The position numbers and the translations under genes were made by a program. Below, one piece after another: positions 4,479-43,132 of a DNA stretch of 64,000 nt. The notes beneath the pieces are model-generated. The model was not told where the DNA came from. It did no database searches and saw only the letters and a program-made list of their open reading frames with translations. Origin of the DNA: Platerodrilus igneus. Taxonomy: Eukaryota; Arthropoda; Insecta; Coleoptera; Lycidae. The DNA lies in assembly GCA_036346225.1 (NCBI GenBank), contig JARFIW010001177.1, forward strand, positions 280,501-344,500, given 5' to 3'. Within the stretch, counting starts at the first letter, position 1; the number at the start of each line of letters is the position of its first letter.

Positions 4479-4480
<2 letters not shown>

Positions 4481-4520
<40 letters not shown>
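4481..4520. repeat. (TA)n microsatellite
   Basis: A pure TA tract separating Penelope copy A from solo LTR B. Its counterpart in the right arm is 40,950-40,979. Confidence 0.95.
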
Positions 4521-4522
<2 letters not shown>

Positions 4523-6573
4523 ATGTGGTATGTGTGGTAAGGGTTGTACATTGCCAGTGTCAACAGCCGATTTTAAAATTAAAAATAAAAATTTCAAACA
4601 CAAAAAAATTCTTACCCGCTTATTTTCTGCTTCAAAATATCTTCAGCAGCTTTGCTGGCTAGCTCAGCTGTGCCTCTTCTCGGATACCTAAATTTACAAT
4701 CATTCTTCCTTCCCACTCGCACACCTTTCAATAAAATCACCAAATAATACAACAATCATACAATCATTTATTTACCGCTATTTACAGCCAAAATATTCAC
4801 AGGTATAAACAGTTTGGTATATTAATTACAACTCAATAAGTTACATGTTTCAAAGTCCTTGTTTTAAGTTATTATTTGCAAACACATTTAGTAAAAATAT
4901 GAGTAGATGGGCCCCAAATAATACCCTAAATTTATTATTTACTGAAGTATGGTTTATTAATGTATGCCTTTTACTTTGCATAAATCTAATACAAAATTAA
5001 TAGACCCGTCTACCCTTAACAATCCAATTTATATTCATAATAAAATTTAGTAAGTTTTAAATACACCATCTTTCAATATTTTAAATCACCACAATAATTG
5101 TCCAGTACACGTAGTCTTTCCGATACGTTCATATAACCATAAATAACCCCAATATTTACTCACACATCACCAAATAATACAAAGTTTATCAGGTAACAGA
5201 AATTTCAAATAAGTTACCTGGATAATGCTTCAGGCCTCCATCCCTTCAACGATGATTACCAGAACCCCTTGGCTTCGTGACTATGCGCTCTGCTACTCCA
5301 CATATTTATAGATGATAACCCCAATATTTACCAAGCGCCTTGCTTCAAATTACCATTCCATAACAGCATATAAACTCACGTATATTATGCGTCTATTTAT
5401 TGATTTACTAAGCTTGGTCTGGTAGTAATTGGACCTCTGTTAATTTGATTTTCAATACACTACTCGTATCTTACGTTAATAACTAGTAGGCCACAACTAC
5501 CAAATTACTAGTACTAGCAGTACATTTACGGTATAATGAATGTATTTAATACTCACAAAAACTCTACTATCACGTCGGTCTATTGTTGTAAAATAGTATA
5601 AAGCGATGAGAATACCAAGAGTACAAAGAGCACTTTACTACTTTTGCTAGAGTATTTATATTTTTCAAAAAACTCCCTCCTGGCTACACTTCACGCGAAA
5701 AATTTATTTTCAAATAATAATTCTGCAAATTTTGATATAACCGATTTCAAAATTCCTGAAACTTGTTCCATGAACGCGCCGTATCTATCCGAAAATCGCT
5801 TCCACCTCTCGCATGTTCGTGCGTTTGTAAACTATCGATTCCCAACCAATGAGACTATTCTGTGTCGTCATAAAACTCCGCCTGTAATATTTTTATCTCT
5901 GTCTTATGCATATTTGATGTCGCGTTCCAAACCCCACTTGTGTTATAGAAAATCGATATTGCTGACAGCCCATCTCAACTCCACGTGGATTAGTACGTGC
6001 GATTGCAATATTAACGTTTTTCTATCTGTCTCTGTCTGTAGCATATTACCGATCGTGCTACTCCCTGCTCTTTAAGAATTTTGTTAGCTTGTTATTCGAA
6101 CCAACTGACGGTTGAAGACTATTTTCTATGAAGTCCGGCTTTATTATGCTAATACTTTCAAAGAATGTAACCTTTTAAAAATGCAGGTGCTCTTAATTAC
6201 AGACCGTTTAAAACAACAATTCTTGGAGCTTATACTTCGCCGTATCAGATAAAACTGACGTCTTTGTTTGTTACCAAGAAACCTTTTGCCTTGGGATTAT
6301 TGATTTTTCTTGCCCTAGTGGGTTTTTAATGCTTTTACACGTTGAATTACAAATAAATTAAATTAATTAGGCTTTTCTATTTGTTTTTTAAAAACTGTTT
6401 TTCTTTATATACTTTTAACCTTTCTATCATTAATTATAAAAATACGTCAATACTTGTCCTTTCTCCCTAAATAAATTAAATAAATGTTGCGCGTAAATAA
6501 TTTGTTCGTTTCACTATACAGGGTGGTTGAAATTGCAATGCCTACCCCAATTTAACCTTTTGAATCCATAACA
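4521..6573 (-). mobile_element. Solo LTR, family B (left copy)
   Basis: A 2.05 kb block with TG at 4,521 and CA at 6,573, lying directly in (TA)n. It is repeated in inverted orientation at 38,950-40,949. On the minus strand a TATA box is followed within ~35 bp by sequence like an initiator, as expected for U3-R of an LTR. No internal region, primer site or partner LTR in the same orientation is present. Short open frames inside it do not look like proteins. B' is ~50 bp shorter through small indels and has many substitutions. Confidence 0.7.
5653..5660 (-). promoter_or_regulatory. TATA box of LTR B
   Basis: On the minus strand the sequence reads TATAAATA. It is conserved in B' at 39,863. Position inside the LTR fits the core promoter at the U3/R boundary. 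Confidence 0.6.
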
Positions 6574-7331
6574 ATACAGGGTGTTTTTTTTAAGTGGGAG
6601 GTCACCTGTATATGGAAGACCAATGGTACAAGGAAGCTGAAAATTTGCACTAGGAGGTTATCCAATGTGCCCTACACGTCTAAAATAGTTTCGATACGTT
6701 ATCACTTTCGGTTATACCGGAAGTCGGTATTACTATCGTTATTTTAAATAGAACACCCTGTATATTTATGCATTTTTGAATTCCTTGTCGAATTTTATGT
6801 GAACCTTTATAACACAACCATACCTCTATCTAATGCAGGTTTCGAGATATTTTGATTTTTAGTAGATTTTTGACATTTGCACGCTGTCACATAAATTGGA
6901 ATAACTAGAAATTAAACGAACTTACAAAATTGTTTTTTTGCAATCACATTCATAATACTTGATATTATTTCTACGTGCAAAGAAAATTTAATTGCAATGT
7001 ACAGGGTGCTAGAAAATTCATTTTATAATTTGACTAATAAAATGTCAAATATTCCGTTTTTTTTAAATGGGACCTACCATATTTTGTTATATTAATCGAT
7101 TCTATGGAAAAAAATACCTTAGGTATGTAATTACAACAATCCATTTATTGTAAGCCGTTTTTGAGTTATTTGCATTAAAAGAGAAAATGCACTAGTTCAG
7201 TAACATAATAACATTTGCTACTATCAAGTAGCTTTTGTCCGATACATTAACAAAAGAATAATTGGTTATTTTACGAAACGTTAAATGTAGATAATTCTAC
7301 GCAGATTTCAATTCCCGTACTGTAGTTATTT

Positions 7332-20311: not shown

Positions 20312-20343
20312 AACGCGACAGACCACTAGATTTCAGTGTAAAT

Positions 20344-24154: not shown

Positions 24155-24196
24155 TATATATTATTATATATTATATATATTATATATTATTATATC

Positions 24197-24227
<31 letters not shown>
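24155..24227. repeat. Complex TA/TTA-rich tract
   Basis: Interleaved TATTA and TA units leading into LTR E; the counterpart is 38,711-38,852, which is longer. Confidence 0.85.
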
Positions 24228-24234
<7 letters not shown>

Positions 24235-26816
24235 TTCTGTGGTATTTCATTAATAAATAGGGTTAGATAGCTTACTTCACAATTTATTTCAGGTTTCAAT
24301 ACGTAAAGACCAAAAAGCAACAATTTGTAACAGTTTGCAAATTACTAGTGCAGGATTTAATTTTAGAAAGAACTTTCAGAATGCATAAATTCAATGTAGC
24401 ATAAGGGTAGAATCACGAATACTAATTAAAGTAGTGTGTTACAATATAAATATTCTTTGGCGTATATTTAAGAATCATAAACATATTTAATCATTGTAGG
24501 TAATTAGTGTTGCTTAGGGTGTAAATATAAAGCTTCAACGATTTCTGTTTCATTTTTAAATTATTGTGTAAGATTTCTAAAGGCAAACGTTGACCATTAT
24601 AGTCGTCAAGTAGATATATAACCTTTAAAAGTTACGTTATAGTGAATAGGTGTATTTGCTAGAACGCTCTTCTAAGATTTCAAGCAAGGAGGTTGAGCAT
24701 TTTAAACCGTTGAAATTCTAAGGATTGTGTATAACGACAAACAGGCAGTTATAGTTTTAATAGTTTTCCAAGTATAATTTGTAGATAAAACAAAACAAAC
24801 AAACATCGAGTTCAAGGAAGAGGGATTTATTGTTGTCGGTTAGAAATGTAGGAACCCAAACATAACAACGAAGGATACCTATAGTATAAGCAAGAATAGG
24901 ATGGAAAAGTATCGTATCAAGTATTCATTTAACATGGGGGAAAACTGAAATAAGGATAGTAGATATTAATGCATATGGAAAGAAGAAAGTTGAACTTATT
25001 TGCATGTTATTTAAAGTAGGTATTTCATCAAGGACAGATGAAACTTGCCAACAGAGAAACAAAGTAAGACTATCAGACAAAGTAGGTATGGGACGGAGAC
25101 AAGTATAGTTTTGAATATTGTTTAGAGAGGCTGATGCTTGATTACTGCTACAGGTAGATAACAAGCGTAAAAAAGAACGGTTTTTTGGTTAAGTATGGAT
25201 AATAGTGAGAAAGAATACAAGGTGTTAATATAGACATACTTTGAGATGGGTTATTCTGTTGAATTGACATGTAAATGATTAACTGAACAAAGAGAGATTA
25301 ATTTGGCAGAAGGAGTAAGAGAAAGAAAAACATAATACAAAGTTAGTTAAATTTGGAGTTCAGACGAGGAAGTGGAATAAGAACAGATTGGGGTTAGACA
25401 AGGTAAGAAATAGTAGATTAAGAGAATATGTTGAAGGGAGATGGATATAATATAGGTATTATGGAAAGGGTGTTTTCAACATTAAATTGTTTTAGTAAGG
25501 ACTAAATTTCCGAGAAGTGAGTGTCCGTTGCAAGAGATATAAGGAAAATAACTACGGGAGAGGTTTTGTGCCGGGACAAAATTCTAGGATTTGGATGGCA
25601 GTTGATATTTTCTAAAGAAATTTCGGAGAAATGAGTGAACGTTTGCTTGTGGGATTTTAAGAATTGAGTAACCTTTGGAAGTTTACCAAGAAAGCTTTGT
25701 TTGTTTGTATTGACGGATTTTGAGAATTTAGGAGCTTTAGAGGGGCACAAAAGCCAATATAAAGACAAGGATTTGTTGGTAGGGCTCTCTTATCTTCACT
25801 TCTCTTTAAGCGCAACTACGTTAGTCTTCAAGTAACAACAGTCTTTGAGTTTAAAATATAACTAACACTAGTGGTGTTTAGTTTCGTCCAGCTGTCAGCA
25901 AAAGTATTATAAAAAATTCTAAAGAATGCAAATGGTAACAGACGGAAATAGGTAAGTACCGTCTACGTGATATTTGATTGGGTGCATAGTAGGCACTTTA
26001 AACGGAGTAGATGTTGATGGTAGACTGACGCGATTGTTCACCTACCGTAAATGGGACGTGTAGCTGCAGTAGAGAGATTTGAAAGTCTCTGGTAATTGAA
26101 AGGATATAGTCGCAGGTAGCAGTCACCGCTGGTGCAATCCTTATTAAGAGACATTCCTAAAGGCGCAGCTATTGATAAAAGCCGCAGACGTCAATGGTGT
26201 GAAAACAGATCCATGGGCAGTAGAATCCAGGGCACGGATGTTTCGAAAAATTTTAGCTTTTTGTGTTTAATTGATGTGCAATGACTTTTATACTTTATGG
26301 GTATGTACTGTGAAACTAAAAGTAACTGAATCAAAAACAGTTAGGCATTGAACGAACTTGTTTTTTGATATTATTTTTTTATATTTTGCTTAGGGGGAAT
26401 TTAGGTTATTGAAATGATTGCTGTACTATAGTATTGTGTGCAAGGTAAAAAGGATTTTTTGTAATTTGTTGTGCTGAAATTAGCACGAGTAATTAAAGGT
26501 TGTACTATGAGCTCGTACTAAACCAGAGTAATGTAAGGTTAGTGGTATAGTCCTGTTACTTTTTATGATTATTAATCTGGGAATATGTGATAAAATGTAT
26601 TATTTAAAAAGGGGATAACTTGTAATACAATAAATCTAAGAACTTGATTTTGCATGATGATTTTTGTATATAATTTTTCTATGAGTAAATCGAGGAGATT
26701 TACCGTTGCAGCGTCTTTCCTTTTTTGTGGCGTAGCTAGTTGTAATTTTTAGACAGGAGCAGAGCAGCCGTGGCAAACTACATTGTTTGAGTTTACTTTA
26801 CACAGGTAACTTTGCA
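24228..26816 (+). mobile_element. Solo LTR, family E (left copy)
   Basis: 2,589 bp, TGTATATTTC...AACTTTGCA. The inverted partner at 36,122-38,710 has exactly the same length with scattered substitutions. A TATA box (25,758) and downstream primer-site-like modules give plus orientation. The U3/R part carries residue-level similarity to LTR B on paper translation (RHKTSPVV vs RHKTPPV), hinting at common descent. Open frames inside are not convincing genes. Confidence 0.7.
25758..25764 (+). promoter_or_regulatory. TATA box of LTR E
   Basis: TATAAAG in the context GCCAATATAAAGACAAGG, with a CCAAT-like sequence just before it. Conserved in E' (minus strand, 37,174-37,180). Confidence 0.55.
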
Positions 26817-27003
26817 TTAATTTATGACACCCAATTTTTAGGGGCTTTTATAAAAGTAAACCACGCATTATTATAGCGACCAAAATCGGGACTCGAATTG
26901 TGGGGCTGTGGTACAAAGCGAACTTTGCAGCATTTATAACGCCCAAAAGTGGGCTTGGAATTAGCTTTAGGAATCAGACTACGCATTAATTTATGACGAA
27001 CCA
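26817..27003 (+). promoter_or_regulatory. Leader with four tandem primer-site-like modules
   Basis: Four units each begin with GCA followed by TTAATTTATGAC-like sequence: primer-like starts at about 26,825 (TGACACCCAA), 26,874 (TAGCGACCAA then GGACTCGAATT), 26,936 (TAACGCCCAA then GTGGG) and 26,994 (TGACGAACC). They resemble the complement of a tRNA-Lys 3' end with substitutions. The last unit runs into the first satellite monomer (CACGGAGGAG). Repeated in reverse at 35,939-36,121. Confidence 0.55.
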
Positions 27004-29152
27004 CGGAGGAGATCCGGCTCAACTGCCTTTTTCCATAGTATAATTTAAAAGAAAAGCAGGTTTAATGAGTTTTAAATTAATACAAAGTAAAAAAGGAATT
27101 GTTGGCAAGTGACATAAATTCAGCCACCAGGGCATCCTGTCGACGCGTTTTGCCCTAATTGGGGCTCATCAAGACAGGAGTAGCAAAGTTGTAGTAATTA
27201 ATACAAATACCTTATGGGTAGTAAAGCATAACCTAGCCCACAATTTGTGTCTTCGTGTCGTTTCACCTGACATCGCAGGCTCTACCAACAGTCGTCACGG
27301 AGGAGTTCCAGCTCAACTGCCGTCTTCCATAGCCAATAGGTATAATTAAAAAATAAGTAGGTTTAATGAGTATAAAATTAATACAAAGTAAAAAAGGAAC
27401 TATTGGCAAGTGACTCAAATTTAGCCACGAGGAAACCCTGTCGACGCGTTTCGCCCTAATTGAGGCTCATCAGGACAGGAGTAGCAAGGTTGTAGTATTT
27501 AATACAGACACTTTATGGATAGTACAGCATCACCTAGCGCACAATTTTTGTCTTCGTGTCGTTTCACCTGACATCGCAGGCTTTACCAACAGTCGGCACG
27601 GAGGAGATCCGGCTCAACTGCCTTTTTCCATAGTATAATTGAAAAGAAAAGTAGGTTTAATGAGTTTTAAATTAATACAAAGTAAAAAAGAAATTATTGG
27701 CAAGTGACATAAATTCAGCCACCAGGGCATCCTGTCGACGCGTTTTGCCCTAATTGGGGCTCATCAAGACAGGAGTAGCAAAGTTGTAGTAATTAATACA
27801 AATACCTTATGGGTAGTACAGCATAACCTAGCCCACAATTTGTGTCTTCGTGTCGTTTCACCTGACATCGCAGGCTCTACCAACAGTCGTCACGGAGGAG
27901 ATCCAGCTCAACTGCCGTCTTCCATAGCCAATAGGTATAATTAAAAAATAAGTAGGTTTAATGAGTATAAAATTAATACAAAGTAAAAAAGTAACTATTG
28001 GCAAGTGACTCAAATTTAGCCACGAGGAAACCCTGTTGACGCGTTTCGCCCTTATTGGGGCCCATCAGGACAGGAGTAGCAAGGTTGTAGTATTTAATAC
28101 AGACACCTTAAGGGTAGTACAGCATAACCTAGCCCACAATTTGTGTTTTCGTGTCGTTTCATCTAACATAGCAGGTTTTACCAACAGTCGGCACGGAGGA
28201 GATCCGGCTCAATTGCATTTTTCCATAGCCAAAAGGTATAATTTCAAAGAAAAGTAGGTTTAATGAGTCTTAAACTAATACAAAGTAAAAAGGGAATTAT
28301 TGGCAAGTGACTCAAATTCAACCACGAGGGCGGCCTATCGACGTGACTCGCCCTAATTGGGGCTCATCAAGAAAGGAGTAGCAAAGTTGTAGTATTTAAT
28401 ACAGACACCTTATGGGTAGCACAGCATAATCTAGCCCACAATTTGTGTCTTCGTGTCGTTTCACCTGACATTCCAGACTTTACCAACTGTTGGCACGAAG
28501 GAGATTCAGCTCAACTGCCTTTTTCCATAGCCAAAAAGTATATTTTAAAAGTAAAGTAGGTTTAATGAGTCTTAAATTAATACAAAGTAAAAAAGGAATT
28601 ATTGGCAAGTGACTCAAATTCAACCACGAGGGCGGCCTATCGACGTGACTCGCCCTAATTGGGGCTCATCAAGAAAGGAGTAGCAAAGTTGTAGTATTTA
28701 ATACAGACACCTTATGGGTAGCACAGCATAACCTAGCCCACAATTTGTGTCTTCGTGTCGTTTCACCTGACATCGCAGGTTCCACCAACAGTCGTCACAG
28801 AGGATTTCCAGCTCAACTGCCGTCTTCCATAGCCAAAAGGTATAATTAAAAAATAAGTAGGTTTAATGAGTATAAAATTAATACTATTGGCAAGTGACTC
28901 AAATTTAGCCACAAGGGCATCCTGTCGACGCGTTTCGCCGTAAATGGGGTACATCAAGCCAGGAGTAGCAAAGTTGTAGTATTAAATACAGACACCTTAT
29001 GGGTAGTACAGCATAATCTAGCCCACAATTTGTGTCTTCGTGTCGTTTCACCTGACATCGCAGGTTCCACCAACAGTCGTCACATCGGAGTTCCAGCTCA
29101 ACTGCCGTCTTCCATAGCCAAAAGGTATAATTAAAAAATAAGTAGGTTGGTA
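27000..29152 (-). repeat. Hammerhead-ribozyme satellite array, left arm
   Basis: About seven monomers of ~300 bp whose ribozyme strand is the minus strand. Ribozyme positions start near 27,135, 27,437, 27,730, 28,032, 28,335, 28,635 and 28,920. Monomers share the boxes GGTGAAACGACACGAAGACA and CCTAGCCCACAATTTGTG (opposite strands). Only the second keeps a fully plausible core; others carry the mutated CTTGATGA, CTGATGG or GAGT forms. The arm ends at an abrupt inversion point at about 29,152. Confidence 0.9.
27437..27480 (-). ncRNA. Type I hammerhead ribozyme, core intact (left arm)
   Basis: Minus strand: CTGATGA, stem II GCCT/GGGC with one T-G wobble and loop CAATTA, then GAAA, ACGCGT and cleavage-site C. 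Stem I pairs CCTGTC with GACAGG. Confidence 0.8.
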
Positions 29153-29255
29153 AAGCCTGCGATGTCAGGTGAAACGACACGAAGACAAAAATTGTGCGCT
29201 AGGTGATGCTGTACTATCCATAAGGTGTCTGTATTAAATACTGCAACCTTGCTAC

Positions 29256-29300
29256 TCCTGTCCTGATGAGCCCCAATTAGGGCGAAACGCGTCGACAGGA
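29256..29300 (+). ncRNA. Type I hammerhead ribozyme, intact core (reference copy)
   Basis: Stem I: TCCTGTC (29,256-29,262) pairs perfectly with GACAGGA (29,294-29,300). Core CTGATGA at 29,263-29,269. Stem II: GCCC (29,270-29,273) with GGGC (29,280-29,283), loop CAATTA. Then GAAA (29,284-29,287). Stem III is the self-complementary ACGCGT (29,287-29,292), which has no room for a loop in one molecule, so two ribozymes would pair as a dimer. The predicted cleavage is after C 29,293 (GUC). All core nucleotides match the hammerhead consensus. The known role is self-cleavage of tandem transcripts into monomers and religation to circles. Confidence 0.9.
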
Positions 29301-29556
29301 TTTCCTCGTGGCTAAATTTGAGTCACTTGCCAATAGTTTCTTTTTTACTGTGTATTAATTTTATACTCATTAAACCTACTTACCTTTTAATTATACCTTT
29401 TGGCTATGGAAGACGGCAGTTGAGCTGGAACTCCTCCGTGACGACTGTTGGTAGAACCTGCGATGTCAGCTGAAACGACACAAAGACACAAATTGTGGGC
29501 TAGGTTATGCTGTGCTACCCATAAGGTGTCTGTATTAAATACTACAACCTTGCTAC

Positions 29557-29601
29557 TCCTGTCCTGATGAGCCCCAGTTAGGACGAAACGCGTCGACAGG
29601 A
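29557..29601 (+). ncRNA. Hammerhead ribozyme, stem II mismatch
   Basis: Complete CTGATGA and GAAACGCGTC core and full stem I. Stem II has GGAC opposite GCCC (one C-A mismatch), loop CAGTTA. Confidence 0.8.
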
Positions 29602-30151
29602 TTTCTTCGTGGCTAAATTTGAGTCACTTGCCAATAGTTCCTTTTTACTTTGTATTAATTTTATGCTCATTAAACCGACTTATTTTTTAATTATACCTTT
29701 TGGCTATGGAAGACGGCAGTTGAGCTGGAACTCCTCTGTGACGACTGTTGGTGGAACCTGCGATGTCAGGTGAAACGACACGAAGACACAAATTGTGGGC
29801 TAGGTTATGCTGTACTACCCATAAGGTATTTGTATTAATTACTACAACTTTGCTACTCCTGTCTTGATGAGCCCCAATTAGGGCAAAACGCGTCGACAGG
29901 ATGCCCTGGTGGCTGAATTTATGTCACTTGCCAATAATTCCTTTTTTACTTTGTATTAATTTAAAACTCATTAAACCTACTTTTCTTTTAAATTATACTA
30001 TGGCAGTATGGCAGTTGAGCCGGATCTCCTCCGTGCCGACTGTTGGTAAAGCCTGCGATGTCAGGTGAAACGACACGAAGACAAAAATTGTGCGCTAGGT
30101 GATGCTGTACTATCCATAAGGTGTCTGTATTAAATACTGCAACCTTGCTAC

Positions 30152-30196
30152 TCCTGTCCTGATGAGCCCCAGTTAGGGCGAAACGCGTCGACAGGA
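30152..30196 (+). ncRNA. Hammerhead ribozyme, intact core
   Basis: All core bases present. Stem I 7 bp, stem II 4 bp with loop CAGTTA, palindromic stem III ACGCGT. Confidence 0.88.
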
Positions 30197-30746
30197 TTTC
30201 TTCGTGGCTAAATTTGAGTCACTTGCCAATAGTTCCTTTTTTACTTTGTATTAATTTTATACTCATTAAACCTACTTATTTTTTAGTTATACCTTTTGGC
30301 TATGGAAGACGGCAGTTGAGCTGGAACTCCTCTGTGACGAATGTTGGTGGAACCTGCGATGTCAGGTGAAACGACACGAAGACACAAATTGTGGGCTAGG
30401 TTATGCTGTACTACCCATAAGGTATTTGTATTAATTACTACAACTTTGCTACTCCTGTCTTGATGAGCCCCAATTAGGGCAAAACGCGTCGACAGGATGC
30501 CCTGGTGGCAGAATTTATGTCACTTGCCAATAATTCCTTTTTTACTTTGTATTAATTTAAAACTCATTAAACCTACTTTTCTTTTAAATTATACTATGGA
30601 AAAAGGCAGTTGAGCCGGATCTCCTCCGTGCCGACGGTTGGTAAAGCCTGCCATGTCAGGTGAAACGACACGAAGACACAAATTGTGGGCTAGGTTATGC
30701 TGTGCTACCCATAAGGGGTCTGTATTAAATACTACAACCTTGCTAC

Positions 30747-30791
30747 TCCTGTCCTGATGAGCCCCAGTTAGGGCGAAACGCGTCGACAGGA
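30747..30791 (+). ncRNA. Hammerhead ribozyme, intact core
   Basis: Same as 30,152-30,196: full stems I and II, loop CAGTTA, GAAACGCGTC. Confidence 0.88.
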
Positions 30792-31945
30792 TTTCTTCGT
30801 GGCTAAATTTGAGTCACTTGCCAATAGTTCCTTTTTTACTTTGTATTAATTTTATACTCATTAAACCTACTTATTTTTTAATTATACCTTTTGGCTACGG
30901 AAGAAGGCAGTTGAGTTGGAACTCCTCTGTGACGACTGTTGGTGGAACCTGCGATGTCAGGTGAAACGACACCAAGACACAAATTGTGGGCTAGGTTATG
31001 CTGTACTACCCATAAGGTATTTGTATTAATTACTACAACTTTGCTACTCCTGTCTTGATGAGCCCCAATTAGGGCAAAACGCGTCGACAGCATGCCCTGG
31101 TGGCTGAATTTATGTCACTTGCCAATAATTCCTTTTTTACTTTGTATTAATTTAAAACTCATTAAACCTACTTTCCTTTTAAATTATACTATGGAAAAAG
31201 GCAGTTGAGCCGAATCTCCTCCGTGTCGACGGTTGGTACAGCCTGCGATGTCAGGTAAAACGACACGAAGACACAAATTGTGGGCTAGGTTATGCTGTGC
31301 TACCCATAAGGTGTCTGTATTAAATACTACAACTGTGCTACTCCTGTCTTGATGAGCCCCAATTAAGGCGAGTCACGTCGATAGGCCGCCCTCGTGGTTG
31401 AATTTGAGTCACTTGCCAATAATTCCTTTTCTACTTTGTGTTAATTTAAGACTCATTAAACCTACTTTTCTTTTAAATTATACTTTTTGGCTATGGAAAA
31501 AGGCAGTTGAGCTGAATCTCCTTTGTGCCAACTATTGGTAAAGTCTGGAATGTCAGGTGAAACGACACGAAGACACAAATTGTGGGCTAGATTATGCTGT
31601 ACTACCCATAAGGTGTCTGTATTTAATACTACAACTTTGATACTCCTGGCTTGATGTGCCCCAATTACGGCGAAACGCGTCGACAGCATGCCCTTGTGGC
31701 TAAATTTGAGTCACTTACCAATAATTCCCTTTTTACTTTGTATTAGTTTAAGACTCATTAAGCCTACTTTTCTTTGAAATTATACCTTTTGGCTATGGAA
31801 AAAGGCAGTTGAGCCGGATCTCCTCCGTGCCGACTGTTGGTAAAACCTGCTACGTTAGGTGAAACGACACGAAAACACAAATTGTGGGATAGGTTATGCT
31901 GTACTATCCTTAAGGTGTCTGTATTAAATATTACAACCTTGCTAC

Positions 31946-31990
31946 TCCTGTCCTGATGAGCCCCAATTAGGGCGAAACGCGTCGACAGAG
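31946..31990 (+). ncRNA. Hammerhead ribozyme, intact core
   Basis: Core and stem II complete with loop CAATTA. Stem I is shortened at its outer end (GACAGAG). Confidence 0.85.
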
Positions 31991-32540
31991 TTTCCTCCTG
32001 GTTAAATTTGATTCACTTGCCAATAGTTCCTTTTTTACTTTGTATTAATTTTATACTCATTAAACCTACTTATTTTTTAATTATTCCTTTTGGCTATGGA
32101 AGACGGCAGTTGAGCTGGAACTCCTCCGTGACGACTGTTGGTAGAGCCTGCGATGTCAGGTGAAACGACACGAAGACACAAATTGTGGGCTAGGTTATGC
32201 TGTACTACCCATAAGGTATTTGTATTAATTACTACAACTTTGCTACTCCTGTCTTGATGAGTCCCAATTAGGGCAAAACGCGTCGACAGGATGCCCTGGT
32301 GGCTGAATTTATGTCACTTGCCAACAATTCCTTTTTTACTTTGTATTAATTTAAAACTCATTAAACCTACTTTTCTTTTAAATTATACTATGGAAAAAGG
32401 CAGTTGAGCCGGATCTTCTCCGTGCCGACTGTTGGTAAAGCCTGCGATGTCAGGTGAAACGACACGAAGACAAAAATTGTGCGCTAGGTGATGCTGTACT
32501 ATCCATAAGGTGTCTGTATTAAATACTGCAACCTTGCTAC

Positions 32541-32585
32541 TCCTGTCCTGATGAACCCCAATTAGGGCGAAACGCGTCGACAGGG
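32541..32585 (+). ncRNA. Hammerhead ribozyme, stem II first pair changed
   Basis: CTGATGA and GAAACGCGTC present. The first stem II base is A instead of G, giving an A-C mismatch next to the core, so activity is doubtful. Confidence 0.75.
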
Positions 32586-32841
32586 TTTCCTCGTGGCTAA
32601 ATTTGAGTCACTTGCCAATAGTTTCTTTTTTACTTTGTATTAATTTTATACTCATTAAACCTACTTATCTTTTAATTATACCTTTTGGCTATGGAAGACG
32701 GCAGTTGAGCTGGAACTCCTCCGTGACGACTGTTGGTAGAACCTGCGATGTCAGCTGAAACGACACAAAGACACAAATTGTGGGCTAGGTTATGCTGTGC
32801 TACCCATAAGGTGTCTGTATTAAATACTACAACCTTGCTAC

Positions 32842-32886
32842 TCCTGTCCTGATGAGCCCCAGTTAGGGCGAAACGCGTCGACAGGA
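32842..32886 (+). ncRNA. Hammerhead ribozyme, intact core
   Basis: Full stem I (7 bp), stem II with loop CAGTTA, GAAACGCGTC. Confidence 0.88.
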
Positions 32887-34211
32887 TTTCCTCGTGGCTA
32901 AATTTGAGTCACTTGCCAATAGTTCCTTTTTTACTTTGTATTAATTTTATACTCATAAACCTACTTATTTTTTAATTATACCTTTTGGCTATGGAAGACG
33001 GCAGTTGAGCTGGAACTCCTCTGTGACGACTGTTGGTGGAACCTGCGATGTCAGGTGAAACGACACGAAGACACAAATTGTGGGCTAGGTTATGCTGTAC
33101 TACCCATAAGGTATTTGTATTAATTACTACAACTTTGCTACTCCTGTCTTGATGAGCCCCAATTAGGGCAAAACGCGTCGACAGGATGCCCTGGTGGCTG
33201 AATTTATGTCACTTGCCAATAATTCCTTTTTTACTTTGTATTAATTTTATACTCATTAAACCTACTTATTTTTTAATTATACCTTTTGGCTACGGAAGAA
33301 GGCAGTTGAGCTGGAACTCCTCTGTGACGACTGTTGGTGGAACCTGCGATGTCAGGTGAAACGACACCAAGACACAAATTGTGGGCTAGGTTATGCTGTA
33401 CTACCCATAAGGTATTTGTATTAATTACTACAACTTTTCTACTCCTGTCTTGATGAGCCCCAATTAGGGCAAAACGCGTCGACAGCATGCCCTGGTGGCT
33501 GAATTTATGTCACTTGCCAATAATTCCTTTTTTACTTTGTATTAATTTAAAACTCATTAAACCTACTTTTCTTTTAAATTATACTATAGAAAAAGGCAGT
33601 TGAGCCGGATCTCCTCCGTGCCGACGGTTGGTAAAGCCTGCGATGTCAGGTGAAACGACACGAAGACACAAATTGTGGGCTAGGTTATGCTGTGCTACCC
33701 ATAAGGTGTCTGTATTAAATACTACAACTTTGCTACTCCTGTCTTGATGAGCCCCAATTAGGGCGAGTTACGTCGATAGGCCGCCCTCGTGGTTGAATTT
33801 GAGTCACTTGCCAATAATTCCTTTTCTACTTTGTATTAATTTAAGACTCATTAAACCTACTTTTCTTTTAAATTATACTTTTTGGCTATGGAAAAACGCA
33901 GTTGAGCTGAATCTCCTTCGTGCCAACTGTTGGTAAAGTCTGGAATGTCAGGTGAAACGACACGAAGACACAAATTGTGGGCTAGATTATGCTGTACTAC
34001 CCATAAGGTGTCTGTATTTAATACTACAACTTTGCTACTCCTGGCTTGATGTGCCCCAATTACGGCGAAACGCGTCGACAGCATGCCCTTGTGTGCCGAC
34101 TGTTGGTAAAACCTGCTATGTTAGGTGAAACGACACGAAAACACAAATTGTGGGATAGGTTATGCTGTACTACTCTTAAGGTGTCTGTATTAAATATTAC
34201 AACCTTGCTAC

Positions 34212-34255
34212 TCCTGTCCTGATGAGCCCCAATTAGGGCGAAACGCGTCGACAGG
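34212..34255 (+). ncRNA. Hammerhead ribozyme, intact core
   Basis: Core complete, loop CAATTA; stem I has 6 Watson-Crick pairs plus a T-G at the outer end. It follows the shortened 173-bp monomer. Confidence 0.87.
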
Positions 34256-34805
34256 GTTTCCTCGTGGTTAAATTTGAGTCACTTGCCAATAGTTCCTTTT
34301 TTACTTTGTATTAATTTTATACTCATTAAACCTACTTATTTTTTAATTATACCTTTTGGCTATGGAAGACGGCAGTTGAGCTGGAACTCCTCCGTGACGA
34401 CTGTTGGTAGAGCCTGCGATGTCAGGTGAAACGACACGAAGACACAAATTGTGGGCTAGGTTATGCTGTACTACCCATAAGGTATTTGTATTAATTACTA
34501 CAACTTTGCTACTCCTGTCTTGATGAGCCCAATTAGGGCAAAACACGTCGACAGGATGCCCTGGTGGCTGAATTTATGTCACTTGCCAACAATTCCTTTT
34601 TTACTTTGTATTAATTTAAAACTCATTAAACCTACTTTTCTTTTAAATTATACTATGGAAAAAGGCAGTTGAGCCGGATCTCCTCCGTGCCGACTGTTGG
34701 TAAAGCCTGCGATGTCAGGTGAAACGACACGAAGACAAAAATTGTGCGCTAGGTGATGCTGTACTATCCATAAGGTGTCTGTATTAAATACTGCAACCTT
34801 GCTAC

Positions 34806-34849
34806 TCCTGTCCTGATGAGCCCCAATTAGGGCGAAACGCGTCGACAGG
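34806..34849 (+). ncRNA. Hammerhead ribozyme, intact core
   Basis: Core complete, loop CAATTA, stem I 6 bp. Confidence 0.87.
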
Positions 34850-35106
34850 GTTTCCTCGTGGCTAAATTTGAGTCACTTGCCAATAGTTTCTTTTTTACTT
34901 TGTATTAATTTTATACTCATTAAACCTACTTATCTTTTAATTATACCTTTTGGCTATGGAAGACGGCAGTTGAGCTGGAACTCCTCCGTGACGACTGCTG
35001 GTAGAACCTGCGATGTCAGCTGAAACGACACAAAGACACAAATTGTGGGCTAGGTTATGCTGTGCTACCCATAAGGTGTGTGTATTAAATACTACAACCT
35101 TGCTAC

Positions 35107-35151
35107 TCCTGTCCTGATGAGCCCCAGTTAGGGCGAAACGCGTCGACAGGA
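35107..35151 (+). ncRNA. Hammerhead ribozyme, intact core
   Basis: Core complete, loop CAGTTA, stem I 7 bp. It is the last intact copy before degenerate monomers at 35,408 and 35,710. Confidence 0.88.
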
Positions 35152-35805
35152 TTTCCTCGTGGCTAAATTTGAGTCACTTGCCAATAGTTCCTTTTTTACT
35201 TTGTATTAATTTTATACTCATTAAACCTACTTATTTTTTAATTATACCTTTTGGCTATGGAAGACGGCAGTTGAGCTGGAACTCCTCTGTGACGACTGTT
35301 GGTGGAACCTGCGATGTCAGGTGAAACGACACGAAGACACAAATTGTGGGCTAGGTTATGCTGTACTACCCATAAGGTGTCTGTATTTAATACTACAACT
35401 TTGCTACTCCTGGCTTGATCTGCCCCAATTACGGCGAAACGCGTCGACAGGATGCCCTTGTGGCTAAATTTGAGTCACTTACCAATAATTCCCTTTTTAC
35501 TTTGTATTAGTTTAAGACTCATTAAACCTACTTTTCTTTGAAATTATACCTTTTGGCTATGGAAAAAGGCAGTTGAGCCGGATCTCCTCCGTGCCGACTG
35601 TTGGTAAAACCTGCTATGTTAGGTGAAACGACACGAAAACACAAATTGTGGGCTAGGTTATGCTGTACTACCCTTAAGGTGTCTGTATTAAATACTACAA
35701 CTTTGTTACTCCTGTACTGATGAGCCCCAATTAGAGGGAAACGCATCGGTAGGATGCCATTCGTGGCTGAATTTGAGTCACTTGCCAATAATTCCTTTTT
35801 TACTT

Positions 35806-35807
<2 letters not shown>

Positions 35808-35842
<35 letters not shown>
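35808..35842. repeat. (TA)n microsatellite
   Basis: A TA tract that cuts off the last satellite monomer. It is absent from the left junction, where the array joins the E leader directly. Confidence 0.95.
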
Positions 35843-35844
<2 letters not shown>

Positions 35845-35938
35845 TGCTACTGAGATGCGCTTTATATTTAAAACGCCCCACAACTTGTGTGCCATATATG
35901 CTTCGAGGTTTTCTTGGTACTAAGTCCTCACAATTGGT
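35843..35938. other. Unassigned 96-bp spacer
   Basis: Sequence between the (TA)n and the E' leader with no match elsewhere in the window; nothing recognised. Confidence 0.5.
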
Positions 35939-36121
35939 TCGTCATAAATTAATGCGTAGTCTGATTCCTAAAGCCAATTCCAAGCCCACTTTTGGGCGTT
36001 ATAAATGCTGCAAAGTTCGCTTTGTACCACAGCCCCACAATTCGAGTCCCGATTTTGGTCGCTATAATAATGCGTGGTTTACTTTTATAAAAGCCCCTAA
36101 AAATTGGGTGTCATAAATTAA
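35939..36121 (-). promoter_or_regulatory. Leader with primer-site-like modules (right copy)
   Basis: Reverse copy of 26,817-26,999, with the same four GCA-plus-TTTATGAC-type units on the minus strand. Confidence 0.55.
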
Positions 36122-38710
36122 TGCAAAATTACCTGTGTAAAGTAAACTCAAACAATGTAGTCTGCCACGGCTGCTCTGCTCCTGTCTGAAAATTACAACT
36201 AGCTACGCCACAAAAAAGGAAAGACGCTGCAACGGTAAATCTCCTCGATTTACTCATAGAAAAATTATATACAAAAATCATCATGCAAAATCAAGTTCTT
36301 AGATTTATTGTATTACAAGTTATCCCCTTTTTAAATAATACATTTTATCACATATTTCCAGATTAATAATCATAAAAAGTAACAGGACTATACCACTAAC
36401 CTTACATTACTCTGGTTTAGTACGAGCTCATAGTACAACCTTTAATTACTCGTGCTAATTTCAGCACAACAAATTACAAAAAATCCTTTTTACCTTGCAC
36501 ACAATACTATAGTACAGCAATCATTTCAATAACCTAAATTCCCCCTAAGCAAAATATAAAAAAATAATATCAAAAAACAAGTTCGTTCAATGCCTAACTG
36601 TTTTTGATTCAGTTACTTTTAGTTTCACAGTACATACCCATAAAGTATAAAAGTCATTGCACATCAATTAAACACAAAAAGCTAAAATTTTTCGAAACAT
36701 CCGTGCCCTGGATTCTACTGCCCATGGATCTGCTTTCACACCATTGACGTCTGCGGCTTTTATCAATAGCTGCGCCTTTAGGAATGTCTCTTAATAAGGA
36801 TTGCACCAGCGGTGACTGCTACCTGCGACTATATCCTTTCAATTACCAGAGACTTTCAAATCTCTCTACTGCAGCTACACGTCCCATTTACGGTAAGTGA
36901 ACAATCGCGTCGGTCTACCATCAACATCTACTCCGTTTAAAGTGCCTACTATGCACCCAATCAAATATCACGTAGACGGTACTTACCTATTTTCGTCTGT
37001 TACCATTTGCATTCTTTAGAATTTTTTATAATACTTTTGCTGACAGCTAGACGAAACTAAACACCACTGGTGTTAGTTATATTTTAAACTCAAAGACTGT
37101 TGTTACTTGAAGACTAACGTAGTTGCGCTTAAAGAGAAGTGAAGATAAAAGAGCCCTACCACCAAATCCTTGTCTTTATATTGGCTTTTGTGCCCCTCTA
37201 AAGCTCCTAAATTCTCAAAATCCGTCAATACAAACAAACAAAGCTTTCTTGGTAAACTTCCAAAGGTTACTCAATTCTTAAAATCCCACAAGCAAACGTT
37301 CACTCATTTCTCCGAAATTTCTTTAGAAAATATCAACTGCCATCCAAATCCTAGAATTTTGTCCCGGCACAAAACCTCTCCCGTAGTTATTTTCCTTATA
37401 TCTCTTGCAACGGACACTCACTTCTCGGAAATTTAGTCTTTACTAAAACAATTTAATGTTGAAAACACCCTTTCCATAATACCTATATTATATCCATCTC
37501 CCTTCAACATATTCTCTTAATCTACTATTTCTTACCTTGTCTAACCCCAATCTGTTCTTATTCCACTTCCTCGTCTGAACTCCAAATTTAACTAACTTTG
37601 TATTATGTTTTTTTTTCTCTTACTCCTTCTGCCAAATTAATCTCTCTTTGTTCAGTTAATCATTTACATGTCAATTCAACAGAATAACCCATCTCAAAGT
37701 ATGTCTATATTAACACCTTGTATTCTTTCTCACTATTATCCATACTTAACCAAAAAACCGTTCTTTTTTACGCTTGTTATCTACCTGTAGCAGTAATCAA
37801 ACATCAGCCTCTCTAAACAATATTCAAAACTATACTTGTCTCCGTCCCATACCTACTTTGTCTGATAGTCTTACTTTGTTTCTCTGTTGGCAAGTTTCAT
37901 CTGTCCTTGATGAAATACCTACTTTAAATAACATGCAAATAAGTTCAACTTTCTTCTTTCCATATGCATTAATATCTACTATCCTTATTTCAGTTTTCCC
38001 CCATGTTAAATGAATACTTGATACGATACTTTTTCATCCTATTCTTGCTTATACTATAGGTATCCTTCGTTGTTATGTTTGGGTTCCTACATTTCTAACC
38101 GACAACAATAAATCCCTCTTCCTTGAACTCGATGTTTGTTTGTTTTGTTTTATCTACAAATTATACTTGGAAAACTATTAAAACTATAACTGCCTGTTTG
38201 TCGTTATACACAATCCTTAGAATTTCAACGGTTTAAAATGCTCAACCTCCTTGCTTGAAATCTTAGAAGAGCGTTCTAGCAAATACACCTATTCACTATA
38301 ACGTAACTTTTAAAGGTTATATATCTACTTGACGACTATAATGGTCAACGTTTGCTTTTAGAAATCTTACACAATAATTTAAAAATGAAACAGAAATCGT
38401 TGAAGCTTTATATTTACACCCTAAGCAACACTAATTACCTACAATGATTAAATATGTTTATGATTCTTAAATATACGCCAAAGAATATTTATATTGTAAC
38501 ACACTACTTTAATTAGTATTCGTGATTCTACCCTTATGCTACATTGTGTTTATGCATTCTGGAAGTTCTTTCTAAAATTAAATCCTGCACTAGTAATTTG
38601 CAAAATGTTACAAATTGTTGCTTTTTGGTCTTTACGTATTGAAACCTGAAATAAATTGTGAAATAAGCTATCTAACCCCATTTATTAATGAAATACCACA
38701 GAAATATACA
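36122..38710 (-). mobile_element. Solo LTR, family E (right copy)
   Basis: Inverted partner of 24,228-26,816, same length of 2,589 bp. The TATA box lies on the minus strand at 37,174-37,180. It faces the array, so E and E' would both transcribe inward. Confidence 0.7.
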
Positions 38711-38852
38711 TATATATATATAATAGATATAATAATATATAATTATAATAATATATAATATATAATAATATATAATATAATTTTTATAATTAAATAATAA
38801 TATAATATAATAATATATAATATAAAATAAATATATATATAAGAAATAGTAT
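38711..38852. repeat. Complex TA/ATA-rich tract
   Basis: Interleaved TAATA units, longer and more varied than its left counterpart (24,155-24,227). Confidence 0.85.

Positions 38853-38914: not shown

Positions 38915-38949
<35 letters not shown>
38853..38949. repeat. Hairpin segment and (TA)n
   Basis: Reverse copy of 24,080-24,154 followed by (TA)n at 38,917-38,949. Here the tract joins directly to B', so it shows the state of this site before the 6,577-24,036 insertions of the left arm. Confidence 0.85.
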
Positions 38950-38951
<2 letters not shown>

Positions 38952-40947
38952 TTATGGATTCAAAAGGTTAAATTGGGGCAGGCATTGCAATTTCAACCAC
39001 CCTGTATAGTGAAACGAACAAATTATTTACGCGCAACATTTATTTAATTCATTTAGGGAGAAAGGACAAGTATTGACGTATTTTTATAATTAATGATAGA
39101 AAGGTTAAATGTATATAAAGAAAAACAGTTTTTAAAAAACAAATAGAAAAGCTTAATTAATTTAGTTTATTTGTAATTCAACGTGTAAAAGCATTAAAAA
39201 CCCACTAGGGCAAGAAAAATCAATAATCCTAAGGCAAAAGGTTTCTTGGTAACAAACAAAAACGTCAGTTTTATCTGATACGGCGAAGTATAAACTCTAA
39301 GAATTGTTGTTTTAAACGGTCTGTAATTAAGAACACCTGCATTTTTAAAAGGTTACATTCTTTGAAAGTTTCAGCATAACAAAGCCGGACTTCGTAGAAA
39401 ATAGTCTTCAACCGTCAGTTGGTTCGAATAACAAGCTAACAAAATTCTTAAAGGGCAGGGGAGTAGCACGATCGGTAATATGCTACAGACAGAGACAGAT
39501 AGAAAAACGTTAATATTGCAATTGCACGTGCTAATCCACGTGGAGTAGAGATGGGCTGTCAGCAATATCGATTTTCTACAACACAAGTGGGGTTTGGAAC
39601 GCGACATCAATTATGCATAAGACAGAGATAAAAATATTACAGGCGGAGTTTATGACGACACAGAATAGTCTCATTGGTTGGGAATGGATAGTTTACAAAC
39701 GTACGAACATGCGAGAGGTGGAAGCGATTTTCGGATAGATACGACGCGTTCACGGAGCGAGTTTCAGGAATCCTGAAGTCGGTTATATCAAAATTTGCAG
39801 AATTATTATTTGAAAATAAATTTTTCGCGTGAAGTGTGGCCAGGAGGGAGTTTTTTAAAAAATATAAATACTCCAGCAGAGGTAGTAGAGTGCTCTTTGT
39901 ATTAAATATATTCATTATACCGTAAATGTACTGCTAGCACTAGTAACTTGGTAGTTGTGGCCTGCTAGTTATTAACGTAAGATACGAGTAGTGTAGTGAA
40001 AATCAAATTAACACAGGTCCAATTACTACCAGACCAAGCTAGGTAATCAATAAATAGACGCATAATATACGTGAGTTTATATGCTGTTATGGAATGGTAA
40101 TTTGAAGCAAGGCGTTTGGTGAATATTGAGGTTATCATTTATAAATATGTGGAGTAGCAGAGCGCATAGTAACGAAGCCAAGGGGTTCTGGTAATCATCG
40201 TCGAAGGGTTGGAGGCCTGAAGCATTATCCAGGTAACTTATTTGAAATTTCTGTTACCTGATAAACTTTTGTATTATTTGGTGATGTGTGAGTGAATATT
40301 GAGGTTATTTATGGTTATATGAACGTATCGGAAAGACTACGTGTACTGGACAATTATTGTGGTGTTTTAAAATATTGAAAGATGGTGTATTTAAAACTTA
40401 CTAAATTTTATTATGAATATAAATTGGATTGTTAAGGGTATACGGGTCTATTAATTTTGTATTAGATTTATGCAAGGTAAAAGGCATACATTAATAAACT
40501 GGGTTATTACGAGCTCACCATACTCCAGTAAATAATAAATTTAGGGTATTATTTGGGGCCCATCTACTCATATTTTTACTAAATGTGATTGCAAATAATA
40601 ATTTAAAACAAGGACTTTGAAACATGTCACTTTTTGAGTTGTAATTATTGTACCAAACTGTTTATACCTGTGAATATTTTGGCTGTAAATAGCGGTAAAT
40701 AAATGATTGTATGATTGTTGTATCATTTGGTGATTTTATTGAAAGGTGTGCGAGTGGGAAGGAAGAATGATTGTAAACTTAGGTATCCGAGAAGAGGCAC
40801 AGCTGAGCTAGCCAGGGAAACTGCTAAAGATATTTTGAAGCAGAAAATAAGCGGGTAAGAATATTTTTGTGTTTGAAATTTTTATTTTTATTTTTAAAAT
40901 CGGTTGTTGACACTGGCGATGTACAACCCTTACCACACATACCACAT

Positions 40948-40949
<2 letters not shown>
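38950..40949 (+). mobile_element. Solo LTR, family B (right copy)
   Basis: Inverted partner of 4,521-6,573 (TGTTATGGATTC...ACCACATCA), about 2.0 kb, flanked by (TA)n on both sides. Plus orientation judged from the TATA box. The open frames inside mirror those of B but differ in length, which speaks against coding. Confidence 0.7.
39863..39870 (+). promoter_or_regulatory. TATA box of LTR B'
   Basis: TATAAATA followed after ~30 bp by AGAGTGCTCTTTG, the likely transcript start region. Confidence 0.6.

Positions 40950-40979
<30 letters not shown>
40950..40979. repeat. (TA)n microsatellite
   Basis: A TA tract between B' and Penelope copy A'; counterpart of 4,481-4,520. Confidence 0.95.
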
Positions 40980-40984
<5 letters not shown>

Positions 40985-41528
40985 AGGATTTGTGGGTTTC
41001 AGGTCTGCTTGATTAAAGAATACTCTTGTTTATCACCTAAATTGTCGGATATATTTCTATCCTTTTTCAAAGGTGCTACAATAAGGAAACGCTATTACAA
41101 TATTAATCACTAAAGTACCTACTAAATTGAGGTTACTAATAAATTGGCGTTGTATAAATATAAAAGGTAAGCACAATTCTACAAATTAAAAACATTAATA
41201 ACATGAGTATAACATTAAAAATTTCATATTTCTGTATATAGTGACAATTTTTTGAATGTTTGATTTTGTATACAAAACTTTGTTTTCTAATAATGTAAGA
41301 AAGGTGTTGCTAGATTTTTTAAAGTAATAAGCATGTACGTGTATGTGAGTGTATCAATGTCGATTACACCATTTGGTTGGAGTAGGATGTAATCTTGGTA
41401 TAGTACTTGTATCCGAATTATCTATCATCAGACTGAAAACGTAATAAATATGTGTATATAGTACTCAAATTATTTTTATCTGTTCTTTTATTCATGGTGT
41501 TAGGGTATCTGTAAATGTAGCTCCTTTC

Positions 41529-42170
41529 CTAAAATTCTCTTTTTTGTTTATTGCTTACAATATTTAGATTTACTGGTTCCGAAAAGTTAATCCTATGAGA
41601 ATTATTTAAATTTGCATGGATGCTCAATGCACATGCATTAGGTTTAGCGCGGATGTTACTTCTGTGTTGAGTTATTCTTTGTTTTAGATTTTGTGAAGTT
41701 TGGTCAATATATTCTTCATTGCAGTCTAAACAACTAATTTTGTAGATTACGTTTCTCTGATTTAGTGGTGAAGTTTTGTCTTTAATTTTTGTAAATAAAT
41801 TACTTAGTGTAAGTATTTTTTTTTGCAATTTTTATGTTAAATCTTTTAAAAATATTATATAGCTTTGGTGTCAGTTCTTTTATATAAGGAAGAGAATGGT
41901 ATTGTGAAGTGTCATTATTAGTAATGTTCACATCATTGTTTAAATTAATATTATTTGTATTATTAGTTGGATGGTTATATAATAATCTATTTACTATTTT
42001 TGAAAGATAATTGTTATCTTTTAGAATTGTTCGTAATTTATTTAAATTTTTTTGATATAATGAAGGATGACAAATTTATTTATACTGTTTTTTAAACCTA
42101 ATATAAAATTGATTTTAATTTTGTAATTATGGTACGAGTTATAATTTAAATATCTATCCGAACATGTTGG
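41529..42170 (-). pseudogene. Penelope-like RT linker and GIY-YIG nuclease (minus arm of A')
   Basis: On the minus strand, 41,828-41,529 reads IKDKTSPLNQRNVIYKISCL and continues through the nuclease domain to residues NIVSNKQKREF. A change of the usual GQT to DQT after the second tyrosine motif lies in the catalytic region. The RT linker (42,170-41,830) is in other frames. No RT core. Confidence 0.75.
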
Positions 42171-42185
42171 TTTTTAATACCAATC

Positions 42186-42740
42186 GAAGATTATCAACGA
42201 ACTTCGTTCGTTTATGAAATCTACTTGTCTGTGTGTCTGTCTGTCTGTGTGTCCGAGGCCTTTTTAATGGTCGGACATCAATGTGTGATACATCAATCGA
42301 TTCAGCTCGGTGTCCAGAGCTTAAGTTTTGATGTCAGTTAAAATCGGGCCACGGGGACGCCGAGCCCCCGGGAAAATCCACAGGGATAATTAAAATTTTA
42401 AATAAGTTTAAAATTAATATGCGACACATATTTGAACAATTTATGGCATTTCATGCCAATTATTCCAATATTATAGACATTGTTTAAACTTAAATTTTGA
42501 TTACCGAAAATAATTAGATTCTTATTAAAAAAAAAAAAAAATTCTTATCTTATTGATGAGAACTAATATATAGCTTTTAAAATATTTATTCAATAAAATA
42601 AAATATATTAAAATGTCTCTTTTGTTGTTTATAAATTTTTGTTTTTATCTGAATACTTATAATTATTACAACATAATAATTTTAATTTCTTTAATTTGTT
42701 TTAAAGTAAGTCTACATTTGGAAGTTCGTTGCGACAATGC
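42186..42740. other. Unidentified insert in Penelope copy A'
   Basis: It contains a CTGTCTGTCTGTGTGTCC patch, a GC-rich patch (GGGGACGCCGAGCCCCCGGG) and an A15 run (~42,531). Copy A lacks this block. The A run could be the tail of a short retroposon, but I cannot name it or set exact ends. Confidence 0.4.
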
Positions 42741-42819
42741 CTTGCATTTTCAACTTGTTTTATTGTTACTATTATGAACAAGTATGGTATCTAGAAAGTA
42801 ATTTATTAAAATTTATTAA

Positions 42820-43132
42820 AATTAAAGACAAAACTTTACCACTAAATCAGAGAAACGTAATCTACAAAATTAGTTGTTTAGACTGCAATGAAGAATACAT
42901 TGGCCAAACTTCACAAAATCTAAAACAAAAGATAACTCAACACAGAAGTGGCGTACGCGTTAAACCTAATGCATGTGCATTGAGTATCCATGCAAATTTA
43001 AACAATTCTCATAGGATTAACTTTTCAGAACCAGTAATTCTAAATATTGTAAGCAATAAACAAAAAAGAAAATTTCAGGAAATGTACTACATTTACAGAT
43101 ACTCTAACACCGTGAATGAAGAACAGATATAA
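42820..43132 (+). pseudogene. GIY-YIG endonuclease fragment (plus arm of A')
   Basis: Residues NVIYKISCLDCNEEYIGQTS and downstream NNSHRINFSEPVILNIVSN, ending in a frame break near the stop at 43,130. Upstream reading frame is unrelated, so no functional protein. Confidence 0.75.

Follow-up and report, generated by a model that had tools for sequence, protein, structure and literature searches.

An array of hammerhead blocks

We analysed a 64,000-nucleotide stretch of the beetle Platerodrilus igneus (Coleoptera; Lycidae), contig JARFIW010001177.1 of assembly GCA_036346225.1, positions 280,501 to 344,500 of the forward strand; this 64-kb stretch is called the window, and positions count from its first letter. 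Between 27003 and 35807 lies a tandem array: units of ~300 bp follow one another and together contain 30 type I hammerhead ribozyme blocks. A first-pass annotation, made from the letters alone, had proposed such an array, and three approaches bore it out: Tandem Repeats Finder, which reported ~301-bp repeats at 27038-29148, 29146-34093 and 34093-35810; a fuzzy search with the 45-nt block given in that annotation, which returned 22 plus-strand and 7 minus-strand copies; and a strict hammerhead descriptor. The 30th block (34513, plus strand) carries a 1-nt deletion and was counted by eye, beyond the fuzzy-search set.

The units are regular in length (27 measure 285-302 bp, a single one 173 bp), share 78-99% pairwise identity and lie in DNA with a GC content of 0.38-0.42 in 2-kb steps spanning the array. 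No stop-to-stop open reading frame (ORF) of at least 130 amino acids, the only length class looked for, lies wholly within it. The annotation had left the strand unstated. The array runs in two orientations that turn at ~29148, with 7 blocks on the minus strand and 23 on the plus strand:

27003..29148, minus strand: the inverted segment, with 7 hammerhead blocks in ~300-bp units (repeat finding, fuzzy search)
29146..35807, plus strand: the main segment, with 23 hammerhead blocks, of which 22 came from the fuzzy search and 34513 was added by eye
29140..29155, no strand: inversion junction inside the array, with GTT common to both sides (microhomology read by eye)
35808..35844, no strand: (TA)n tract, (TA)18, closing the array on the right (repeat finding, edge inspection)

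An Rfam match to MIR1023 at 29009-29211, which scored 40 bits where gathering requires 90, was rejected as a foldback produced by the array's own inversion.

The units fall into subfamilies, whose order along the plus strand, read by eye, is A A B A B A B C D, then A B A A B B C D, then A B A A D, ending in a divergent block. Subfamilies thus recur as blocks, for example A-B-A-A-B-B-C-D. This order points to a history of block duplication by unequal exchange, like that of ordinary satellites.

The motif itself is readily legible. A type A block on the plus strand reads TCCTGTC / CTGATGA / GCCC-CAATTA-GGGC / GAA / ACGCGT / C / GACAGGA, with a bulge on the 3' side of stem I and a 6-nt loop II, which may be the partners of a loop I-loop II tertiary contact. 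An additional outer stem I of 5 bp (GCUAC/GUGGC), with the bulge on its 3' side only, is paired in 96.0% of cells. Helix III is a single A-U pair with a palindromic CGCG as its cap and has no stable loop.

Searches with the Rfam model RF00163 (Hammerhead_1; gathering score 34 bits) over the window gave 21 matches at E<=10, 11 of them with E<0.1, and every one fell inside the array, as did a single HH9 match; together, the two models cover 22 of the 30 blocks. The best RF00163 score, 33.5 bits (E 1.6e-4), was reached by three copies, at 29256, 34212 and 34806. The strict descriptor accepted 9 sites in the window, each of them within the array, whereas 20 mononucleotide shuffles yielded none. 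An exact scan of viral contigs with a 24-base motif gave no matches. The anatomy, the Rfam matches and the descriptor sites support the assignment of the repeated unit as a putative type I hammerhead satellite, though one just below the Rfam cut-off.

Integrity and predicted folding of the blocks

We called a block competent if it had the full core (CUGANGA...GAAA, A15.1-U16.1, H17), the GUC, stems I and II, and an open stem I. Ten of the 30 blocks qualified, 9 of which the stricter descriptor also accepts; the other 20 failed, 18 at core positions and 2 in stem II. The first-pass annotation had placed the motif in each monomer, which overstates the case: CTGATGA is unbroken in only 12 of the 30 blocks (counted by eye). 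Likewise, the ACGCGT palindrome that it assigned to stem III is found in 24 of the 30 blocks, among them all 10 competent ones. Its five named block starts (29256, 30152, 30747, 32842 and 35107) were exact. The competent blocks, some of which are identical to one another over 45 nt, and one example of a failing type are as follows:

29256..29300, plus strand: type A hammerhead, intact core, identical to the consensus, RF00163 33.5 bits (fuzzy search, core check)
30152..30196, plus strand: type A hammerhead, intact core, one loop base off consensus (fuzzy search, core check)
30747..30791, plus strand: type A hammerhead, intact core, one loop base off consensus (fuzzy search, core check)
32842..32886, plus strand: type A hammerhead, intact core, one loop base off consensus (fuzzy search, core check)
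34212..34256, plus strand: type A hammerhead, intact core, RF00163 33.5 bits (Rfam, core check)
34806..34850, plus strand: type A hammerhead, intact core, RF00163 33.5 bits (Rfam, core check)
35107..35151, plus strand: type A hammerhead, intact core, one loop base off consensus (fuzzy search, core check)
27436..27480, minus strand: type A hammerhead, intact core, minus-strand copy (Rfam, fuzzy search, core check)
29557..29601, plus strand: type A hammerhead, intact core, single stem II mismatch (fuzzy search, core check)
31946..31990, plus strand: type A hammerhead, intact core, stem I weakened (fuzzy search, core check)
29857..29901, plus strand: type B example, C3>U and G12>A, stems whole, predicted to be catalytically dead (core check)

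The failures follow the subfamilies. C3>U occurs in 17 of the 30 blocks and G12>A in 9: type B (9 blocks) combines C3>U with G12>A, type C (4 blocks) has C3>U, A14>G and A15.1>U, and type D (4 blocks) has C3>U and A9>U. The remaining three failures are 28075 (A9>G), 32541 (first stem II pair broken) and 35710 (two of the four stem II pairs). According to an excerpt of the study of the Dolichopoda cave cricket satellite pDo500, C3 pairs with G8, G12 contacts the cleavage site, and mutations of the core abolish or significantly reduce cleavage (PMC2837043). The G12>A change lies in a CpG and could be explained by deamination, an explanation that does not extend to C3>U. As the core mutations are mostly subfamily-wide, their pattern suggests a few events that were then amplified, rather than many independent losses. 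U16.1 and C17 are kept in all 30 blocks, an observation of low weight, since 33 of the 76 alignment columns are invariant.

From a stem III that is a six-base palindrome with no loop, the annotation had predicted that the motif acts as a dimer. The single hammerhead lay 6.7-13.0 kcal/mol above the minimum fold in all ten competent copies and was the minimum in none, under an energy model that cannot score the 2-nt loop or the core's own contacts and is therefore biased against the single motif. The double hammerhead, by contrast, was the cofold minimum in 5 of the 10 competent homodimers, which are near-identical sequences. Among the 22 pairs of adjacent plus-strand blocks, four A-B pairs had a double-hammerhead gap of 0.0 and one A-A pair a gap of 0.1. 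In most of the printed type A and type B folds the minimum pairs the core GAUG with CGUC; 27480 and 32541 fold differently. Short self-complementary stems generally favour dimers. Given this general tendency and the bias of the energy model against short loops, the cofold result supports a dimer mechanism and does not prove it. The prediction of dimer action is thus supported in part, by this calculation and by published precedents for a palindromic helix III in amphibians and Aedes.

The palindrome around the array and neighbouring elements

A large palindrome, its arms ~7 kb long, has the array at its centre; each arm was recovered in an inner and an outer piece:

24162..27003, plus strand: inner left arm, 98.9% identical to the right arm (self-alignment)
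35935..38777, minus strand: inner right arm (self-alignment)
3295..6576, plus strand: outer left arm; nested elements at 6577-24047 separate it from the inner one
38947..42194, minus strand: outer right arm, 94.4% and 96.0% identical to the left in two pieces (self-alignment)

The left edge of the array adjoins the arm directly, without a (TA)n tract; on the right, the 127 nt between array and arm have no left counterpart. In 250-bp steps the inner arms are 98.4-99.6% identical, except for the outermost, AT-rich step (95.2%); the outer arms, over 3687-6576, range from 93.3 to 98.4%. A further match, 2624-3298/42755-43437, lies beyond them. The insertion at 6577-24047 interrupts the left arm only, and the shift in arm identity, from ~99% (inner) to ~96% (outer), falls roughly at that insertion. 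Gene conversion confined to the inner arms may explain the shift.

Each arm carries, at its outer end, fragments of GIY-YIG domains, four in all, which we take from the motif to be Penelope-like; judged by eye, they are arranged head to head:

2846..3268, minus strand: GIY-YIG fragment (PF01541) at the outer edge of the palindrome (Pfam)
42710..43129, plus strand: GIY-YIG fragment (PF01541), counterpart of 2846-3268 (Pfam; pairing by self-alignment)
3414-3917: GIY-YIG fragment (Pfam)
41532-42075: GIY-YIG fragment, by similarity to the other three only

Neither Rfam nor the strict descriptor found hammerheads in these Penelope-like fragments of the window.

The insertion in the left arm is composite. 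At 6577-9307 lies an element with inverted ends of ~865 bp that are 95.7% alike and start with CAGGGTG; from these terminal inverted repeats and a broken ORF it is presumably Tc1/mariner-like, and two ORFs in it had no Pfam match above cut-off. It is followed by two opposed long terminal repeat (LTR)-like elements, 9339-16727 and 16713-24036, with direct repeats of ~2.1 kb that are ~99% identical; the elements are ~91% alike. Pfam identified an aspartyl protease in the first, with a counterpart in the second by DNA similarity only.

To the right of the palindrome, non-LTR retrotransposon fragments at 43922-44878, 55277-55789, 56556-57086 and 59056-59631 contain RNase H, reverse transcriptase and endonuclease domains. 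Of 16 matches of a retroelement RNase H protein of the window, five carried an organism name, from two butterflies and a spider (29-35% identity), and the best of the 16 was 37% identical; the names point to an arthropod. Pfam also placed a hAT transposase C-terminal dimerisation domain at 50134-50529, and the ORFs upstream of it (48836-49261 and 49702-50091) had no Pfam match. A 5S rRNA-like sequence at 51939-52053 on the minus strand, followed by a T run, scored 37.2 bits against a gathering score of 38 and may be a 5S gene, a pseudogene or a 5S-derived element. Other matches below gathering, such as TB10Cs4H4 snoRNA and mir-1277, were taken as chance or AT repeats.

Interpretation and comparison with known systems

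Taking identity, decay and dimer design together, we consider the array to be probably a retrozyme-like satellite, partly decayed, whose type I hammerhead is designed for action as a dimer. Published systems are cited here from excerpts of the papers. Metazoan retrozymes are described as tandem units of 150-450 bp, with a GC content below 50% and a type I hammerhead (PMC7229834), and the array agrees with them in unit size, GC content and motif. The label 'retrozyme-like' in the first-pass annotation therefore fits the anatomy, while mobility is a candidate reading only. The array, its motif and subfamilies, the inversion and the core mutations were observed directly. From these we infer that a transcript bearing type A blocks would cleave itself after the GUC, for the most part through double hammerheads; in these, two motifs with the weak kind of helix III, one A-U pair under a palindromic CGCG cap, would pair through ACGCGT. 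Most units here would be catalytically dead; unequal exchange would maintain the array as it does ordinary satellite DNA, and the array would belong to a palindromic rearrangement. That RNA from the locus is cut in the living animal seems to us possible and somewhat doubtful.

Several results weigh against this reading. No RF00163 match in the window reached 34 bits, the best copies being short by half a bit; the annotation had stated that the lack of a covariance match above threshold would refute its reading, and taken literally the outcome is such a lack. Within the array the motif is not conserved above its surroundings. Across 27 units, nucleotide diversity was slightly higher in the motif than in the spacer (0.107 versus 0.089), as it was in 12 type A units (0.050 versus 0.037); 7 type B units were the sole group with the lower value in the motif (0.024 versus 0.039). 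Ranked among 303 windows, where a low rank means conserved, the motif came 222nd for all units, 242nd for type A and 108th for type B. These counts cover 27 of 28 intervals, the 173-bp unit 34039 being excluded; the A and B groups were assigned by hand from unit clustering, and the other 8 units (types C and D, the hybrid 33142, 28964 and 28377) enter the 'all' row only. In the 25 distinct sequences compared, none of the 18 stem pairs had both of its bases changed. With neither excess conservation of the motif nor two-sided pair changes, selection on the ribozyme is undetectable within the array. The folding results are also divided: in the other 5 competent homodimers the double hammerhead lay 5.4-16.8 kcal/mol above the minimum, and it was off the minimum in 18 of the 22 neighbouring pairs, 17 of which had gaps of 1.1 to 24.9. 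Eight 73-nt blocks gave fold z-scores of -2.13 to 0.87, and a 602-nt two-unit stretch gave 0.29. Circular units showed no clear excess of structure over 60 shuffles each (z 0.12 and -0.38; -1.24 for a two-unit circle), in a rough control whose shuffling routine returns the original sequence upon failure. With 20 of the 30 blocks failing as well, the annotation's inference of an active or recently active ribozyme is weakly supported.

The strongest competitor, to which we give close to even chances, agrees on the identity of the array and contradicts only the step of present activity: the satellite would be dead, a former retrozyme array no longer transcribed or cleaved, with ten intact cores merely unmutated so far. 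The 20 failing units (18 by core mutations, 2 by stem II), a motif no more conserved than the spacer, be it across all units or within type A, and the lack of compensation favour it, as does the contrast with Dolichopoda pDo500, for which 146 of 198 sequences are described as folding as active and the motif as conserved above the rest (PMC2837043). Ten intact cores, some identical over 45 nt, speak against it, as do core mutations that are mostly subfamily-wide and so suggest few amplified events rather than many independent losses. A second alternative concerns mobility. The array might be a non-autonomous retrozyme, its circular RNA reverse-transcribed by Penelope-like enzymes into tandem cDNA that was inserted by the (TA)n; Penelope-like elements have been proposed to move metazoan retrozymes (PMC7229834), GIY-YIG fragments occur in the same window, and (TA)18 closes the array. 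Yet the fragments lie in the outer palindrome arms and do not adjoin the array, its left edge meets the arm without (TA)n, no monomer copy was found elsewhere in the 64-kb window (best E 0.23), and no target-site duplication was seen by eye at the array edges, where the rearranged left edge would mask any. We regard this origin as rather unlikely.

The two remaining alternatives concern the palindrome. That the whole is a giant foldback-like mobile element, with inverted arms of ~7 kb and the array as its core, is suggested by the arms that flank the array (24162-27003/35935-38777 and 3295-6576/38947-42194); a single-locus inverted duplication explains them equally well. No element ends or target-site duplication were recognised by eye, nor was a transposase in the arm ORFs, where the Pfam scan covered three GIY-YIG fragments only, and the 127 nt between array and right arm are unmatched on the left, all of which makes such an element improbable. 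Inverted arrays and palindromes are also shapes typical of assembly artefacts, such as a fold-back read or a misjoin. Here the arms differ by ~1% (inner) and ~4% (outer), and the nested insertions are in the left arm only, so that an artefact is highly improbable, the least credible of these accounts.

If the retrozyme-like satellite does produce cleaving RNA, cutting only at competent plus-strand cores predicts fragments of 301, 595, 595, 1199, 896, 1370, 594 and 301 nt, mostly not of unit length, unlike those of a fully active array. We also considered a division of labour in which type A units cut and type B units, with dead cores but whole stems and sites, serve as substrates of neighbouring A units within double hammerheads; cleavage of transcripts would then yield chiefly two-unit RNAs of ~600 nt. 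The constancy of U16.1 and C17 and the four A-B neighbours with a double-hammerhead minimum bear on this idea, which we nevertheless think very improbable. More generally, the locus offers a clear example of a ribozyme array in decay, in which one and the same unit loses its core through a few subfamily mutations that then spread.

The nearest relatives by description are the metazoan non-LTR retrozymes, which share with the array a type I hammerhead in tandem units of ~300 bp and low GC content and are listed in insects and crustaceans (PMC7229834); the array differs in that most of its units have a broken core. Its helix III has the design of the amphibian satellite hammerheads of newt and axolotl, with one pair, a palindromic tetraloop and an expected action as a dimer (PMC7229834); the likeness was drawn through the RF00163 model and the published description, the axolotl motif being described there in terms that nearly match, although the host here is an arthropod. 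Among insects, a repeat-type hammerhead of Aedes aegypti, also compared by description, has a palindromic stem/loop III and a proposed dimer, for which its authors saw no cleavage (PMC3088659); the Aedes dimer stem has 10 bp and that of the array 6 bp. Dolichopoda pDo500 is likewise an insect satellite in which every unit has a hammerhead and for which a double-hammerhead model was put forward, but its stem III pairs within one strand, whereas that of the array would pair between strands, and its motif is more conserved than the rest, unlike the motif here (PMC2837043). The minimal hammerheads of Penelope-like elements resemble the array in being type I motifs in tandem that are proposed to cleave as dimers; they are described as lacking helix III or loop-loop contacts, whereas stem I of the array is extended and bulged (PMC7761336). 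A literature search pairing hammerhead with satellitome found nothing, and among the papers listed for hammerheads in higher-order repeats, palindromes or inverted arrays, one contained the hammerhead term; we do not conclude from this that the literature lacks such arrays. The array adds an apparent arthropod hammerhead satellite with a helix III of the amphibian kind, a palindromic stem III having been proposed earlier for Aedes. Since the excerpts cited place the retrozyme class in insects and crustaceans and a palindromic stem III in Aedes, the array joins a known kind; it is less usual in its mixture of intact and dead units and in its inverted place at the centre of a palindrome.

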